Assembly (NCBI GenBank): GCA_016215105.1
Contig: JACRLJ010000031.1
Coordinates: 1-40,652, forward strand
Direction of reading: 5' to 3'
From: Candidatus Hydrogenedentota bacterium
GTDB lineage: Bacteria > Hydrogenedentota > Hydrogenedentia > Hydrogenedentales > SLHB01
DNA length: 40,652 nucleotides
In this document: one piece after another, positions 27,369-36,970 of the stretch
Numbering within the stretch: the first letter of the stretch is position 1
Layout of the letters: every line of letters begins with the position of its first letter
The notes under the pieces: model-generated
The model's input: only the letters and a program-made list of their open reading frames with translations
Database searches by the model: none
Told to the model about the DNA's origin: nothing
Position numbers and translations under genes: made by a program

Positions 27369-27407
27369 TTACTGGTCTCAGTACATATAGACGTAGTTAT
27401 ATATTAC

Positions 27408-27561
27408 AAACCCCAAACCCCAAACCCCAAACCCCAAACCCCAAACCCCAAAACCCCAAACCCCAAACCCAAAACCCAAAACCCAAAACCCAAAACCCAA
27501 ACCCCAAAACCCAAACCCCAAAACCCAAACCCCAAAACCCAAACCCCAACACCCAAACCCC
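27408..27561. repeat. Telomere-like AAACCCC / AAAACCC heptamer array, about 22 units
   Basis: About 22 C-rich heptamers, first AAACCCC repeated, then alternating AAAACCC and AAACCCC, with one AACACCC near the end. The minus strand is a series of GGGGTTT blocks, well suited to G-quadruplex formation. It lies in the gap between the nitrilase gene and a small membrane-protein gene whose start is only 18 bases further on. It is a simple-sequence array; open frames across it (Gly/Phe/Trp-rich on the minus strand) are artefacts. Confidence 0.95.
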
Positions 27562-27578: not shown

Positions 27579-28238
27579 GTGTACAAAATAGGCAGCACAA
27601 ACCGCCGAAAGACCTTGGCGACCTTTGCCGTCGTAATCGCCGCGATAGCGCTTTCTGCGTGGACCCTTATGCGCCAGGTGCGCGTTCTTGAGCCCCTGCC
27701 GCCCCCCCAAGCGCCTGCGGGGCCGCCGGCGCATACCCCAGAGAATTGTTTGGCGCTTCGGTACGCCCGTGCGGTACAGGACGGCAACTGCGAGATCGTC
27801 ATTCCCCACACGCACTGGATGCGGGAACGGCTCAAGGCGATCCTTGCCGGAGCCGAAAAGGGCGCGGAAGATCGGGTTCGGGGCGAGTTGTGTGATAAAA
27901 TACAGTATAGGCCCGCTGAAGGAAACCAGTTACGCAAGGAAGGCGCGGAAGATCAGTACGTATTCGCGCCGGGGGCAACCTTCGAGTGGGTAAGTGAAGA
28001 CGCCGGACGAACGGACCTCGATGCCCCGGTGCGGCGGCGGACCTGGATACGAGTTGTGTTTCCGGTGCGCAGCCGCGCATTATCGGACTTGAAGGGCAGG
28101 CCGATACGTTCTATGGTCGTGGGGGTGAACGTATCCGTCGGCGAGACTGTGCTCAAGGCAAGTGTGGTAGGGAATTTGGAGATAGACTACGGGTCGTTTA
28201 GGTACGACTGGCCTTCACCGCAGGCGATAGGAGGTTGA
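27579..28238 (+). CDS. Single-span membrane protein of unknown function
   Basis: 219 residues from GTG at 27579; no good ribosome binding site is seen, and the frame is open back into the heptamer array, so the true start is uncertain. A basic N-terminus and one membrane helix (about 12-32) are followed by a proline-rich stretch (PLPPPQAPAGPPA) and a soluble domain of about 165 residues, probably periplasmic. The sequence matches no family that I recognise. The following zinc/HTH gene starts three bases after the stop, behind a strong AGGAGG, which suggests coexpression. Confidence 0.65.
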   Translation: MYKIGSTNRRKTLATFAVVIAAIALSAWTLMRQVRVLEPLPPPQAPAGPPAHTPENCLALRYARAVQDGNCEIVIPHTHWMRERLKAILAGAEKGAEDRVRGELCDKIQYRPAEGNQLRKEGAEDQYVFAPGATFEWVSEDAGRTDLDAPVRRRTWIRVVFPVRSRALSDLKGRPIRSMVVGVNVSVGETVLKASVVGNLEIDYGSFRYDWPSPQAIGG

Positions 28239-28240
28239 AC

Positions 28241-28666
28241 ATGGCGTTGGCGAGTTGCCCGCGATGCAAGCAATTATTCACCAAGGTCCGGGTCGAGGTG
28301 TGTCCGAACTGCCAGGCTGACGAAGAAGCGGACTTCGAGAAGATACGCGCGTTTCTCGAGGAGAGTCCGAATAAGACGACGGATGAGGTCGCGAAAGCGA
28401 CGGGAGTATCCCGCGAATGCGTCATGCGGATGGTCGAGGACGGACGGATTCAGAACGTGGCCATGGCCGACCCCGTCAAGTGCGGACGCTGCGGGGCGCC
28501 GGCTATTAGCTTGAACAAGAAGCTATGTCAGGCGTGTCTGGATCAACTGAACATGGAGGTGATGAAGGCGCAATCAAAGGTCAAGCTGCCTCCAAGGAAA
28601 TCCGCAGGAACAGCGTCAGAACCCAACTCGGTTCACACGCTGATCGACGCCAAACGCCGGACGTAG
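28241..28666 (+). CDS. YvyF-like protein: two zinc ribbons around a helix-turn-helix
   Basis: 141 residues from the ATG at 28241 (AGGAGG six bases before). The first ribbon is CPRCK...CPNCQ (C6, C9, C21, C24), the second CGRCGA...CQAC (C81, C84, C96, C99), with a winged-helix/MerR-like turn between them (TTDEVAKATGVSRECVMRMVEDG). This order matches the flagellar-operon protein family YvyF (TIGR03826). No flagellar gene is in the window; the nearest motility gene is pilT. It may bind DNA or other proteins as a regulator. The C-terminal ~35 residues are charged and probably disordered. Confidence 0.75.
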   Translation: MALASCPRCKQLFTKVRVEVCPNCQADEEADFEKIRAFLEESPNKTTDEVAKATGVSRECVMRMVEDGRIQNVAMADPVKCGRCGAPAISLNKKLCQACLDQLNMEVMKAQSKVKLPPRKSAGTASEPNSVHTLIDAKRRT

Positions 28667-33989: not shown

Positions 33990-34102
33990 CAGCGGAGCGA
34001 CTCGCGGCGTACTTGCGCGCGGCGCGGTCATTTGAAACAATCGCGTGTGGCGCCGCGCCGGGTTCTGTTCCGGGTGGTGAGGACGCAATGGAGGATTCCG
34101 CA

Positions 34103-35179
34103 ATGATGACCATGGAAGAACTGATGCGCGGAGCGTTGGACCGTAACGCGTCCGATATTCATCTGAAGGTGGGAAATCCGCCCATCTACCGGATTGACGG
34201 TTCCCTGATTCGGTTGCCCGAGCAGCCGTTGACAGAAGAAGATCTGATGAAGCTTCTGTCCACTATCGCGCTGCCAATCGATATCGACAAGTTCAAGAAA
34301 GTCATGGAACTCGATATTTCGTACATCCTCGAAAGCATCGCCCGGTTTCGCGTCAATGTGTGTAAAGATGACGGCAACACGCGCATCGTTCTTCGACTCA
34401 TCCCGCTCGAGATCAAGAAGATCGGCGATTTGTCGCTCCCTCCTGTCCTCGGAAAGATCTGCATGCAGGCCAACGGCCTGGTGCTGGTGACGGGCCCAAC
34501 GGGAAGCGGTAAGTCCACAACGCTGGCCGCCATGATCGATGAGATTAACGAGAAGCGTCCGCTGCACGTGGTCACCATCGAGGACCCGTTGGAATTCGCC
34601 CACCGCGACAAGACCGCCATCATCACCCAGCGTGAGGTAGGCCACGACACCTTGTCGTTCGCCAACGCGTTGCGCGGCGCCCTGCGCCAGGATCCCGACG
34701 TGATTCTCATCGGTGAAATGCGCGACGCCGAGACGGTGCGGACGGCCCTGGCCTCGGCAGAGACCGGCCACCTCGTGTTTTCCACGCTGCACACGGTGGA
34801 CGCGGTCGAGACGTTGAACCGTATCATCGACTTCTTCGAGCCGCATCAGCAGCTTCAGATTCGCAAACAGTTGGCGAGCGTGCTCCGCGCGGTTATTTCG
34901 CAACGGCTCGTTCCTCTGAAGGAAGGCACAGGGCGCTGTTGCGCGGCGGAGATTCTGATCGGTAACCGAACCGTGCGCGATCACATCGATCAAGGGAAAA
35001 ACTTCAAGGAAATCTCCAAGCTGATCGAGGATGGCCACGAGCAATACGGTATGCAGAGCTTCGATCAGGCCTTGTATGACTTATTCAAGTCAGGGAGGAT
35101 ATCGGTCGAAGAAGCCCTGAAGAACGCGAGCAGCGCCAAAGACCTCAAGCTGCGAATTCAAGGCTTGCGCGTAAACTAG
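34103..35179 (+). CDS. pilT: Type IV pilus retraction ATPase PilT
   Basis: 358 residues from the ATG at 34103 (GGAGGA seven bases before); an ATG at 34088 with GAGGA four bases before would add five residues. Walker A is GPTGSGKST (131-139), Walker B DVILIGEMRD (200-208), with THTHD-like STLHTVD (227-233). The N-terminal SDIHLKVG and PPIYRIDG match PilT/PilU. The hexamer powers pilus retraction at the inner membrane. No other pilus genes are in the window. It follows tsaD by 113 bases without coupling. Confidence 0.92.
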   Translation: MMTMEELMRGALDRNASDIHLKVGNPPIYRIDGSLIRLPEQPLTEEDLMKLLSTIALPIDIDKFKKVMELDISYILESIARFRVNVCKDDGNTRIVLRLIPLEIKKIGDLSLPPVLGKICMQANGLVLVTGPTGSGKSTTLAAMIDEINEKRPLHVVTIEDPLEFAHRDKTAIITQREVGHDTLSFANALRGALRQDPDVILIGEMRDAETVRTALASAETGHLVFSTLHTVDAVETLNRIIDFFEPHQQLQIRKQLASVLRAVISQRLVPLKEGTGRCCAAEILIGNRTVRDHIDQGKNFKEISKLIEDGHEQYGMQSFDQALYDLFKSGRISVEEALKNASSAKDLKLRIQGLRVN

Positions 35180-35225
35180 ATTAGTGAATCAAAAGCGAAG
35201 CGCCTCAAATGAACACGGAGCCCAA

Positions 35226-35289
35226 GCGAAAAACAGGGACTGACTCGCTTTTCGGCAGTATGAAAAGCGTGTCTGTCCCTGCTTTTCGC
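35226..35289. repeat. GGGACTGAC palindrome 1 of the 35-kb cluster
   Basis: Arms 35226-35253 and 35262-35289 pair at 25 of 28 positions around an 8-base centre. They contain GGGACTGAC / GTCTGTCCC and GCGAAAA / TTTTCGC. Right-hand part plus CGGCATGCG is copied again at 35663-35699. Confidence 0.85.
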
Positions 35290-35318
35290 GGCATGCGGAA
35301 AATGTACACCGAGCCCAA

Positions 35319-35400
35319 GCGAAAAACAGGGACTGACTCACTTTTCGGCAGTTTGAAAAGGGTGTCTGTCCCTGCTTTTCGTGTCCCTGCTTTTCGCGGC
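35319..35400. repeat. GGGACTGAC palindrome 2, with an extra half-arm
   Basis: Arms 35319-35346 and 35355-35381 are very close to palindrome 1 (centre GGCAGTTT). A second TGTCCCTGCTTTTCGCGGC (35382-35400) follows immediately, a partial duplication of the right arm. Confidence 0.85.
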
Positions 35401-35426
35401 ATTCGCGCAACGCACACAGAACTCAA

Positions 35427-35480
35427 GCGAAAACCAGGGTCCGTCTCGCTTTTCCGCAGTTTGCAGAGCGTGTCTGTCCC
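35427..35480. repeat. GGGACTGAC palindrome 3, decayed
   Basis: A diverged copy: AGCGAAAA, then GGGTCCGTCTCGCTTTT, a shared CGCAGTTT centre, and GCGTGTCTGTCCC as right arm. It appears to be an older copy. Sequence between the three palindromes contains no gene. Confidence 0.7.
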
Positions 35481-35593
35481 GAATGACGCTAAGTTAAGCG
35501 CGGGAAGCGCCAAAGTAGAAGAGGCGTCCCCGCCGCTTCCGGTGGCCTTCTCACTGCGCTTCGACAGACCCAACCTTACTCTCCTACCGATCA

Positions 35594-35640
35594 AATCCGT
35601 CCAATCCGTCCACTGTGTCCACTTTGTCCACTTTGTCCAC
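35594..35640. repeat. Degenerate 9-bp tandem array
   Basis: Five 9-base units: AATCCGTCC twice, ACTGTGTCC once, ACTTTGTCC twice, then AC. Non-coding, between the palindrome cluster and its last half-arm. Confidence 0.85.
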
Positions 35641-35662
35641 AAGGCGCTTGGCCTTATCTCAG

Positions 35663-35699
35663 CGCAAAGCGTGTCTGTCCCTGCTTTTCGCGGCATGCG
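35663..35699. repeat. Isolated right half of the GGGACTGAC palindrome
   Basis: From about 35666 the sequence repeats 35264-35297 (AAAGCGTGTCTGTCCC, then the TGCTTTTCGCGGCATGCG part). No left arm is present. It ends 12 bases before the next gene's ATG and includes part of its leader. The 532-bp gap 35180-35711 consists mostly of these repeats. Confidence 0.8.
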
Positions 35700-35711
35700 C
35701 GTCCGGGAGCA

Positions 35712-36608
35712 ATGAGTCGGATTCTGCTTGTATTGGTCACGCTTTCGGGCGCCGCGGCAGCGGAAAACCTGCTCGCCAACCCCGGTTTCGAGGAACTCAA
35801 GGCCAGCCAACCGGCCCATTGGAGTGTGTTCGTTATGCCGCAAACCGGCTCCTGGGGCCGCCTCGACAGAGACACCGTACTTGCGGGCAAGTACTCGGTC
35901 TCCCTGCACATTGCCACCCCGTACGTTGTCGAACCCGCCAACAACTGGAGCCAGAACATCGTGGCTGACCTGCGAAAAGCGAGTCTTGTCGTGCGAGGCG
36001 CCATCAAGACCGACGAAGCCACCGAAGCCGCCATCTGGCTACAGTGCTTTCGGAAAACCCCACTCGCAACGTTGGCCGTGGTATCCACCAGCGACACAAC
36101 ACTCATTCATGGGACTCACGACTGGGCGGCGGTCGAGGCCAGGCTCACGGTTCCCGAGGGCACGGACTTTATCGTGTGCCGATGCGTACTGAAGGGAAGT
36201 GGAACCGCATGGTTCGACGATCTCTCCGTGGAGAAGTTGCCTGCAGACGCCAAGAGAGCGGACGCCCAAGACGCGGCTCCGATTCCGAATCCCAACCCTG
36301 TTCCCGTTCCGAAGCAAACCACGCCCGCGCCCAGCAGCGTCACTACTCCGTCGCAAACTGAAACGAAGGGAGCCGGAGGCGAAGAAACGCGCCGCGCTTT
36401 CAAAGAGTTGCTGGACGCGAACGCGGAACTGCGCAGGTCCAACAAAGACATGCAAGAGCAAATAAAACAATTGCGGGAAGAACTGCGCGATTTGCGCCGG
36501 GACATTCCGCGCGATACGCCGAAGCCGCCGCCGGCAATTCCGCCGCTACCGGAGCCTCCGGCCCCGCCTCTCGTTCCTCACGATTATTCCGCGGAGGGAA
36601 AACCCTGA
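35712..36608 (+). CDS. Secreted beta-sandwich (CBM-like) protein with coiled-coil tail
   Basis: 298 residues. A short signal peptide (1-17, cut at AAAAE) leads to a jelly-roll domain at about 18-177 that looks like a carbohydrate-binding module (NLLANPGFEE at its start, WFDDLSVEKL at its end). Then come a proline/threonine linker, a coiled coil at about 225-270 (NKDMQEQIKQLREELRDLRR) and a proline-rich tail. The layout suggests that it binds a glycan and oligomerises at the cell surface or in the periplasm. GGGAG precedes the ATG. Its stop overlaps the next small membrane gene (TGATG). Function unknown. Confidence 0.78.
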   Translation: MSRILLVLVTLSGAAAAENLLANPGFEELKASQPAHWSVFVMPQTGSWGRLDRDTVLAGKYSVSLHIATPYVVEPANNWSQNIVADLRKASLVVRGAIKTDEATEAAIWLQCFRKTPLATLAVVSTSDTTLIHGTHDWAAVEARLTVPEGTDFIVCRCVLKGSGTAWFDDLSVEKLPADAKRADAQDAAPIPNPNPVPVPKQTTPAPSSVTTPSQTETKGAGGEETRRAFKELLDANAELRRSNKDMQEQIKQLREELRDLRRDIPRDTPKPPPAIPPLPEPPAPPLVPHDYSAEGKP

Positions 36609-36793
36609 TGCAGTCGGGAAAGATTGTTATTATCGCGCTCATCGCCGGACTCGTGGGCGCTGGGTTCGTTTGGTTCTCATGGAGTCTTTTCGAGAACGTC
36701 CTGGCCGGGGTAAAGCGTAAGAAGCCGCCAAAGCCGGCGGACGCTCCCGGCGCCGCCGCCGAGTCGAAACCGTCAAAGCCCGATAAGAAGTAG
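36608..36793 (+). CDS. Small single-span membrane protein
   Basis: 61 residues; the ATG overlaps the previous stop. A membrane helix spans about 5-27 (GKIVIIALIAGLVGAGFVWF), and the rest is Lys/Pro/Ala-rich (KRKKPPKPAD...KPSKPDKK), probably cytoplasmic and disordered. No family recognised. The next ORF starts on the base after its stop, so all three small genes should be translated together. Confidence 0.7.
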   Translation: MQSGKIVIIALIAGLVGAGFVWFSWSLFENVLAGVKRKKPPKPADAPGAAAESKPSKPDKK

Positions 36794-36970
36794 ATGAAAC
36801 AGCGGCGGCCCTATATCGGAGTGCTCTTCAAGTGCTGCCACGTGTATGTGCGTGTCTGTCTCAACGCGGACGGCACGGCTTATACTGGAAACTGTCCGCG
36901 CTGCGCGGCACGGTTGGAAATTAAGACTGCCCCCGGCGGAAATCCGTCACGCTTTTGGACAACTGAATAA
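36794..36970 (+). CDS. 58-residue cysteine-rich (zinc-ribbon-like) protein
   Basis: Begins on the base after the stop of the small membrane gene. The peptide starts MKQRRPYIGVLFKCCHVYVR, has NADGTAYTGNCPRCAARLE in the middle and ends PGGNPSRFWTTE. Cysteines 14, 15 and 22, histidine 16, and CPRC at 34-37 could hold a zinc ion. I recall similar short proteins with PYIGV, CC.VY, GTAY.G.CPRC and a RF end as hypothetical genes in planctomycete- and verrucomicrobia-like genomes. It is easy to miss because of its length. Role unknown; the coupling with an envelope protein and a membrane protein is the best clue. Confidence 0.7.
   Translation: MKQRRPYIGVLFKCCHVYVRVCLNADGTAYTGNCPRCAARLEIKTAPGGNPSRFWTTE

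Follow-up and report, generated by a model that had tools for sequence, protein, structure and literature searches.

A conserved three-gene cassette found mostly behind pilT in Hydrogenedentota, and its possible role as an accessory of a type IV pilus machine

The window analysed here, that is, the whole stretch of 40,652 nucleotides of contig JACRLJ010000031.1 from a Candidatus Hydrogenedentota bacterium (assembly GCA_016215105.1), harbors three adjacent genes, ORF1, ORF2 and ORF3 (Table 1), that are conserved and linked within the phylum and whose adjoining gene codes for a PilT. We tentatively favor the view that the trio forms a trans-envelope accessory to the type IV pilus machine that this PilT would serve. 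All parts belong to known kinds, namely a domain similar to carbohydrate-binding modules (CBM), a small transmembrane (TM) peptide, a small protein with four cysteines and a PilT. None of the three proteins matches a curated family of Pfam or NCBIfam over its cut-off, PHROGs and PADLOC gave weak rows only, and the accessible part of the open-licence literature gave no description of the cassette, of the ORF3 family or of the pili of Hydrogenedentota. The statement of an earlier note on this DNA that no function is known for the three genes is in line with this lack of a curated family and of a description in the literature consulted. A trio outside the curated families would now gain a testable class of function, that of a pilus or envelope accessory.

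Table 1. Features of the cassette and its upstream neighbor (coordinates in the window)
Feature	Coordinates	Strand	Length	Start	Basis
pilT-family retraction ATPase	34013..35179	+			TIGR01420, E 3e-135, 450.9 bits vs cut-off 319.1
pilT-ORF1 intergenic stretch with genome-wide repeat	35180..35711	no strand			repeat matches
ORF1	35712..36608	+	298 aa	ATG	ORF list and translation
ORF2	36608..36793	+	61 aa	ATG	ORF list and translation
ORF3	36794..36970	+	58 aa	ATG	ORF list and translation

The three reading frames had been described as joined by a 1-base overlap or a zero gap, and this is borne out: ORF1 and ORF2 overlap in TGATG, ORF2 and ORF3 abut (TAG ATG), and by eye a GGAGG lies ahead of the ORF2 start and a GGGAG ahead of that of ORF1. 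Upstream of the cassette the window holds tsaD and the pilT-family ATPase, and the downstream neighbor is a Gfo/Idh/MocA-type oxidoreductase. Here pilT and ORF1 are 532 nt apart, and the gap bears a repeat with 51 matches in the genome, itself counted, and with three 99-nt direct copies inside the gap; we presume that it resembles a REP-type element. Scans for promoter-like sites (0 vs 0.4 in shuffles) and terminator-like sites (1 vs 3.8 in shuffles) were uninformative. Elsewhere in the window, positions 28235-28666 code for a protein of 143 aa whose two ends weakly match zinc ribbons and which also has a weak helix-turn-helix match, none of them reaching the Pfam cut-offs, and low-complexity repeats (GFGVWGLGF...) are present in a minus-strand reading at ~27380-27560.

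The first two genes accompany ORF3 almost everywhere in the phylum, a point that the earlier note had proposed to check: of the 34 genomes in which ORF3 is full-length, 31 have the three genes directly side by side. This count is made up of 27 of the 30 ORF3 loci inspected in a search of 60 genomes, where ORF1 and a small single-TM ORF2 lie ahead of ORF3, two loci cut by contig ends (L012 and L015) whose contigs also hold the C-terminus of ORF1 and ORF2, and two further genomes (G030 and G042). A true exception is L019 (genome G035), where the gene directly 5' of ORF3 encodes a longer protein with a hydrophobic stretch at its C-terminus. The block is split in G044 and G051, where one contig carries pilT and ORF1 and a second one a small TM ORF directly followed by ORF3. 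By position and hydropathy this small ORF looks like an ORF2-type gene, sequences so short and diverged being unsuited to a test of homology; if it is counted as such, 33 of the 34 genomes have an ORF2-type gene immediately 5' of ORF3. Because the two split genomes keep the TM ORF and ORF3 apart from pilT and ORF1, ORF2 looks like the hinge of the block.

Seen from ORF1, the pairing is similarly tight: ORF2 follows in 42 of the 44 ORF1 loci inspected (27/27, 11/13 in further genomes, 3/3 and 1/1), two genomes with a split or cut ORF1 (G012 and G019) being excluded. Twelve genomes carry ORF1 and ORF2 with no match to ORF3 (G005, G008, G009, G010, G021, G028, G029, G038, G041, G043, G049 and G052). 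A control of the region ahead of ORF3, restricted to loci with at least 250 nt upstream, searched for an ORF of 38-125 aa with a strong hydrophobic segment that ends just 5' of ORF3; it was positive at 21/23 Hydrogenedentota loci vs 0/55 loci of other phyla, and at the two loci missed (L052 and L064) ORF2 is present on the contig with another start choice.

ORF1 begins with a hydrophobic, signal-peptide-like N-terminus, in which neither a lipobox nor a prepilin motif was seen by eye in the alignment, and continues with a CBM-like jelly roll (residues ~17-179), a disordered linker, a helix or coiled coil (222-264) and a proline-rich tail. It is probably secreted. We aligned the window's protein with those of 19 of the 23 Hydrogenedentota-like loci from the best 80 of 182 ORF3 loci (four loci whose contigs lack all or part of ORF1, namely L035, L042, L045 and L062, were excluded, and the partial L046 was retained). 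NNWSQ, W138 and AWFD are invariant in the 20 aligned rows of the domain, and PPLVPH in the tail is exact in 8 of them, with variants in most others. An AF2 model built from this alignment (pLDDT 83.0; 188 residues at 90 or more) is closest to the hyaluronan-binding module 4d0q, which we take to be a CBM70 (Z 18.5, rmsd 2.1, 147 residues aligned), followed by CBM16 (Z 15.3-16.9) and CBM4 (Z ~16), and Foldseek gave CBM22 rows and E 6.7e-10 for CBM jelly rolls. A jelly-roll fold of CBM type is predicted with high confidence, in agreement with the original description of ORF1 as glycan-binding-like, and sugar binding would be the function that such a fold suggests. Phage tailspike, insecticidal-toxin and cyclase rows at Z 14-17 have this fold as well, and the match of a model to CBMs is by itself no demonstration of function. 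At the sequence level, the ORF1 profile gave in the PDB a weak match to an endoglucanase chain (8ag9, E 0.0036), rows for a phage fiber (E 0.012) and for a module of a hyaluronate lyase (E 0.16), and otherwise mostly coiled coils, and no CBM family appeared among the Pfam or NCBIfam rows at E up to 1. Profile matches at E<=1e-3 are present in 55 of the 68 Hydrogenedentota genomes; the counts given below retain the 46 genomes with a best E of 5.9e-16 or lower and drop nine weaker ones, eight of which match in open frames of more than 400 aa.

ORF2, noted before as a tiny membrane protein, indeed has a single hydrophobic segment by hydropathy, predicted to be transmembrane and located near the N-terminus, and a basic tail. 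Its length ranges from 42 to 87 aa, with a median of 63 (27 loci). Lys and Arg are more abundant on the C-side of the segment in 20/27 loci, equal in 4/27 and less abundant in 3/27, making an N-out/C-in orientation likely, if not uniform across loci.

ORF3 displays the pattern CC-x18-CPxC followed by a C-terminal SRFW motif (SRF[WF] in the whole family). Cysteines C14, C15, C34 and C37 are invariant in 80/80 rows of an alignment of the window with 79 of the best 80 loci (L062 left out), and in 30/30 rows of a second set; Y18, G32, P35 and G49 are likewise invariant (80/80). Position 16 varies (N, H, G, D and others), so that of the Cys/His pattern announced by the earlier note the cysteines stand but the histidine does not. 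Hydrogenedentota loci have W at position 55 (21 of 22), and the other loci have F there (56 of 57, the remaining one being a gap). In the best model (pLDDT 86.7, against 74-82 for the four others) the chain forms five short strands. This model gave no Foldseek match at E<=0.001, and its weak fold rows (VIA, best Z 3.2) include ZPR1, NrdR, Elf1 and S27e at Z 2.5-3.2, mixed with unrelated proteins. The ORF3 profile found a single chance row among PDB sequences (E 8.2), and no curated family of Pfam or NCBIfam was over its cut-off, the best Pfam rows scoring 18.6 vs 30.3 and 18.3 vs 24 bits. Binding of a metal, zinc, is plausible from the four cysteines. ORF3 belongs to a recurring hypothetical family, as had been supposed, with four conserved cysteines and no curated name in Pfam or NCBIfam.

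Homologs and coding selection, by which the earlier note had suggested that ORF3 be judged, were both found. ORF3 matches are present in 34 of the 60 genomes first searched, the window's own counted, and in 35 of the 68 Hydrogenedentota genomes, where 34 are full-length and one (G040) is an N-terminal half alone beside a contig end. By the Nei-Gojobori method (30 sequences, 435 pairs) the median pS is 0.704 and the median pN 0.279, with a highest pN/pS of 0.80 and values of 0.06-0.14 for the three least diverged of 12 listed pairs, whereas in the other two frames the median pN (0.40-0.41) exceeds pS (0.31-0.32). ORF3 is a real gene under purifying selection. It occurs in about one copy per genome. 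No match was obtained in 33 of the 68 genomes; many genomes are incomplete, yet 17 of the 38 best genomes also have none, suggesting that ORF3 is probably not essential in Hydrogenedentota.

The most frequent neighbor of the trio is pilT. Among the matches listed, 30 of the 46 ORF1 genomes, some of them without ORF3, have their best match to the window's pilT directly 5' of ORF1 in the same orientation, with a spacing of 5-535 nt and a median of 55.5 nt as measured between alignment ends. Adjacency refers here to the best-matching pilT among the matches listed, weaker paralogs not being entered, and orthologs were assigned by best match and not by a tree; identity to the window's pilT is 59-79% in the best-matching group. 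In the non-adjacent genomes, ORF1 stands at a contig end in seven (G005, G011, G014, G017, G019, G020 and G022), is split in G012, and is 2,250 nt from pilT in G002. The earlier note saw the trio as a small system of three genes; they are indeed linked, but the system is not free-standing, as ORF1 mostly follows one pilT, ORF1 and ORF2 occur without ORF3 in a dozen genomes, and ORF3 is broader and independent in other phyla (see below). When all ORFs within 6.5 kb of ORF3 were compared all against all (many loci being shorter per side), the only clusters with more than three Hydrogenedentota loci, among the 45 largest of at least five loci each and antisense or shadow ORFs aside, were ORF3, ORF1 (22 loci) and pilT (13 loci); ORF2, short and diverged as it is, escapes such a comparison. 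Apart from the block itself the surrounding gene order is not conserved, so the linkage to pilT is probably selective. In the window's genome, 10 ATPases of the PilT/PilU family exceed the curated cut-off, an apparent expansion, and several further ATPases are PilB-like but score below the cut-off for PilB. In ORF1 to ORF3, no type IV pilus family of Pfam or NCBIfam was found beyond weak coiled-coil rows, and no prepilin-type N-terminus was recognized by eye with a motif taken from general knowledge.

Several observations weigh against a pilus accessory. ORF1 has neighbors other than pilT, with room on the contig, in 7 of the 46 genomes, and pilT homologs (E<=1e-80) are present in all 68 genomes of the phylum, 22 of which have no strong ORF1 match. 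The lack of a pilus-family match in the trio beyond weak coiled-coil rows, the 532 nt with repeats between pilT and ORF1 in the window and the larger distance in G002 point the same way, as does the company that ORF3 keeps in other phyla (see below). A rather unlikely alternative, but the best of those considered, is an envelope polysaccharide scaffold independent of pili, in which a periplasmic ORF1 would bind the cell's own wall or exopolysaccharide, ORF2 would hold it at the inner membrane, and pilT would be there through inherited gene order. The CBM-type fold of ORF1 is consistent with such a scaffold, and so is the conservation of the genes away from pilT, the trio being kept in five of the seven genomes (G001, G003, G007, G030 and G031) and ORF1-ORF2 in two (G010 and G021); the weak profile matches in nine more genomes also indicate that related domains are common in the phylum. 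However, among the 45 largest clusters no other family of the neighborhood is retained beyond three Hydrogenedentota loci, which makes it unlikely that pilT alone was kept passively.

Outside the phylum, ORF3 is found in other company. A total of 182 loci were confirmed, and the counts by phylum concern the best-scoring 80 of them, of which 23 are Hydrogenedentota-like and the others belong to Planctomycetota, Zixibacteria, Nitrospinota, Myxococcota-related lineages and a few more. ORF3 thus defines a strongly conserved family of mini-proteins (CC-x18-CPxC, SRF[WF] tail) across several phyla, and the named Planctomycetota strains that carry it (Bythopirellula, Neorhodopirellula and Adhaeretor) are possible hosts for its study. 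One locus titled Nitrospiraceae (L038, JAACEL010000471.1) holds the Hydrogenedentota cassette with W55 and probably comes from a mislabelled genome. A mobile origin of ORF3 was considered and rejected, with no match in plasmid, phage or viral collections. In a poorly resolved ORF3 tree (57 columns), the Hydrogenedentota rows require 2 label changes vs 20.2 in shuffles and form one group in 3% of the bootstrap trees, which suggests a mostly vertical descent and not a proven clade. Full-length ORF1 was not found in 38 ORF3-bearing genomes of other phyla: at E<=1e-10, four of them match in parts of profile positions 21-205 only, within the jelly roll or slightly beyond it, and 34 have no match. 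The combination of ORF1, ORF2 and ORF3 occurs only in Hydrogenedentota among the genomes examined.

Among the best 80 of the 182 loci, an archaemetzincin-like ORF lies 3' of ORF3 in 16/16 Zixibacteria loci, all in one BLAST cluster; two were scanned, and both are over the Pfam M54 cut-off and just under that of NCBIfam. Compared with the archaemetzincin consensus given in the accessible part of PMC3427221, the Glu of HExxH is missing in 13 of the 16 (L044, L048, L053, L055 and 12 other Zixibacteria loci) and the cysteines are retained, so this is likely a non-proteolytic family, to judge from these residues. In Planctomycetota, a protein of ~160-180 aa is encoded 3' of ORF3 on the same strand in 14/31 loci, not always directly and sometimes within a longer frame, and one of ~300-440 aa is also found 3' of ORF3 in 13/31. 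The shorter protein reads FEFEVQRCTRHCAKTEREFRPGEIF..., an example locus being L057:8208-9750, and the neighbors scanned (both of L057 and the longer one of L075) have no Pfam or NCBIfam match. An ATPase related to the pilus type, presumably PilB/GspE-like, is located 2.6 kb 3' of ORF3 at 1 of 57 other-phylum loci (L058). In Planctomycetes bacterium CA13 (L054), ORF3 lies ~0.7 kb 5' of flagellar basal-body-like ORFs that we take, also by eye, to be flgB, flgC, fliE, fliF and fliG. ORF3 is a broad family whose tie to ORF2 arose in a single phylum, and as it is not linked to pili in the others, its own function need not concern pili.

This distribution also bears on a second alternative, which we regard as unlikely, whereby ORF3 would be a housekeeping mini zinc ribbon, with a task in RNA, ribosome or RNA polymerase function or in redox or metal handling, and would just be cotranscribed with a separate envelope pair, ORF1 and ORF2. 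The different neighbors of ORF3 in several phyla (archaemetzincin-like in Zixibacteria, the uncharacterized protein in nearly half of the Planctomycetota loci, assorted genes elsewhere), its near single copy per genome and the zinc-ribbon proteins among its weak fold rows, mixed with unrelated ones, are compatible with such a role. On the other hand, the pairing with an ORF2-type gene in all but one of 34 genomes, even when split from ORF1, and the 33 of 68 Hydrogenedentota genomes that gave no ORF3 match speak against it. Finally, small overlapping genes beside genomic repeats might recall a toxin-antitoxin, defense or mobile-element module, which is very improbable, as PADLOC gave only JetC (E 0.017, over the coiled coil), ORF3 is near single copy with mostly vertical descent, and ORF1 is predicted to be exported.

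The trans-envelope accessory of a PilT-served pilus machine, which we tentatively favor, fits the order of the genes, from pilT (motor) to ORF1 (exported), ORF2 (membrane) and ORF3 (cytosolic), with ORF2 as the hinge. The trio would be the distal part of the block. An exported ORF1 would present its carbohydrate-binding-type domain on a coiled-coil stalk, ORF2 would be a short bitopic peptide of the inner membrane with a probably cytoplasmic tail, and ORF3 a cytosolic mini-protein, its four cysteines probably holding zinc, that acts at the membrane with ORF2. The glycan-contacting part of ORF1 could anchor to, or sense, wall or surface polysaccharide, and ORF2 and ORF3 could relay this contact to the retraction motor, or scaffold the motor. 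If this link to the pilus is true, PilT machines gain a glycan-contacting and metal-linked control part. A bolder version, in our opinion quite improbable, would be a phylum-specific signaling device, in which the outer glycan-binding protein, a connection through the membrane and, inside the cell, a metal sensor with four cysteines would gate the retraction of a dedicated PilT on contact with polysaccharide, ORF3 having been recruited from a widespread family that is paired with other partners in other phyla, such as the archaemetzincin-like proteins of Zixibacteria, most of which lack the catalytic Glu.

Some known systems come close to the cassette in single parts or in the role proposed for it. 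ORF1 residues ~17-179 share their predicted fold with the beta-jelly-roll CBMs (4d0q, CBM16, CBM4, CBM22). Unlike these, ORF1 has no enzyme attached, carries a coiled coil and a Pro-rich tail after the domain, and is encoded beside pilT; its ligand site is putative. ORF3 resembles small zinc-ribbon proteins (NrdR, Elf1, S27e and ZPR1 domains) in its four invariant cysteines, its small predicted beta structure and a weak structural likeness. It differs from the two CxxC knuckles of zinc ribbons in that its first pair is an adjacent CC and its second a CPxC, and it has a conserved C-terminal SRF[WF] and no curated-family match at cut-off. As for the whole cassette, TsaP is a periplasmic scaffold of the secretin machine in type IV pili, and a similar role is proposed here. 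The same holds for the periplasmic scaffolds GspB/OutB of type II secretion systems (T2SS), as presented in the accessible part of PMC9239104, since the cassette may likewise connect a pilin-type machine with the glycan of the envelope and with the inner membrane. In contrast to GspB/OutB and TsaP, ORF1 matches no curated family of that kind and has a predicted CBM-type domain, and the membrane anchor and the periplasmic part of the cassette would be the products of separate genes, to which a Cys4 protein is added.
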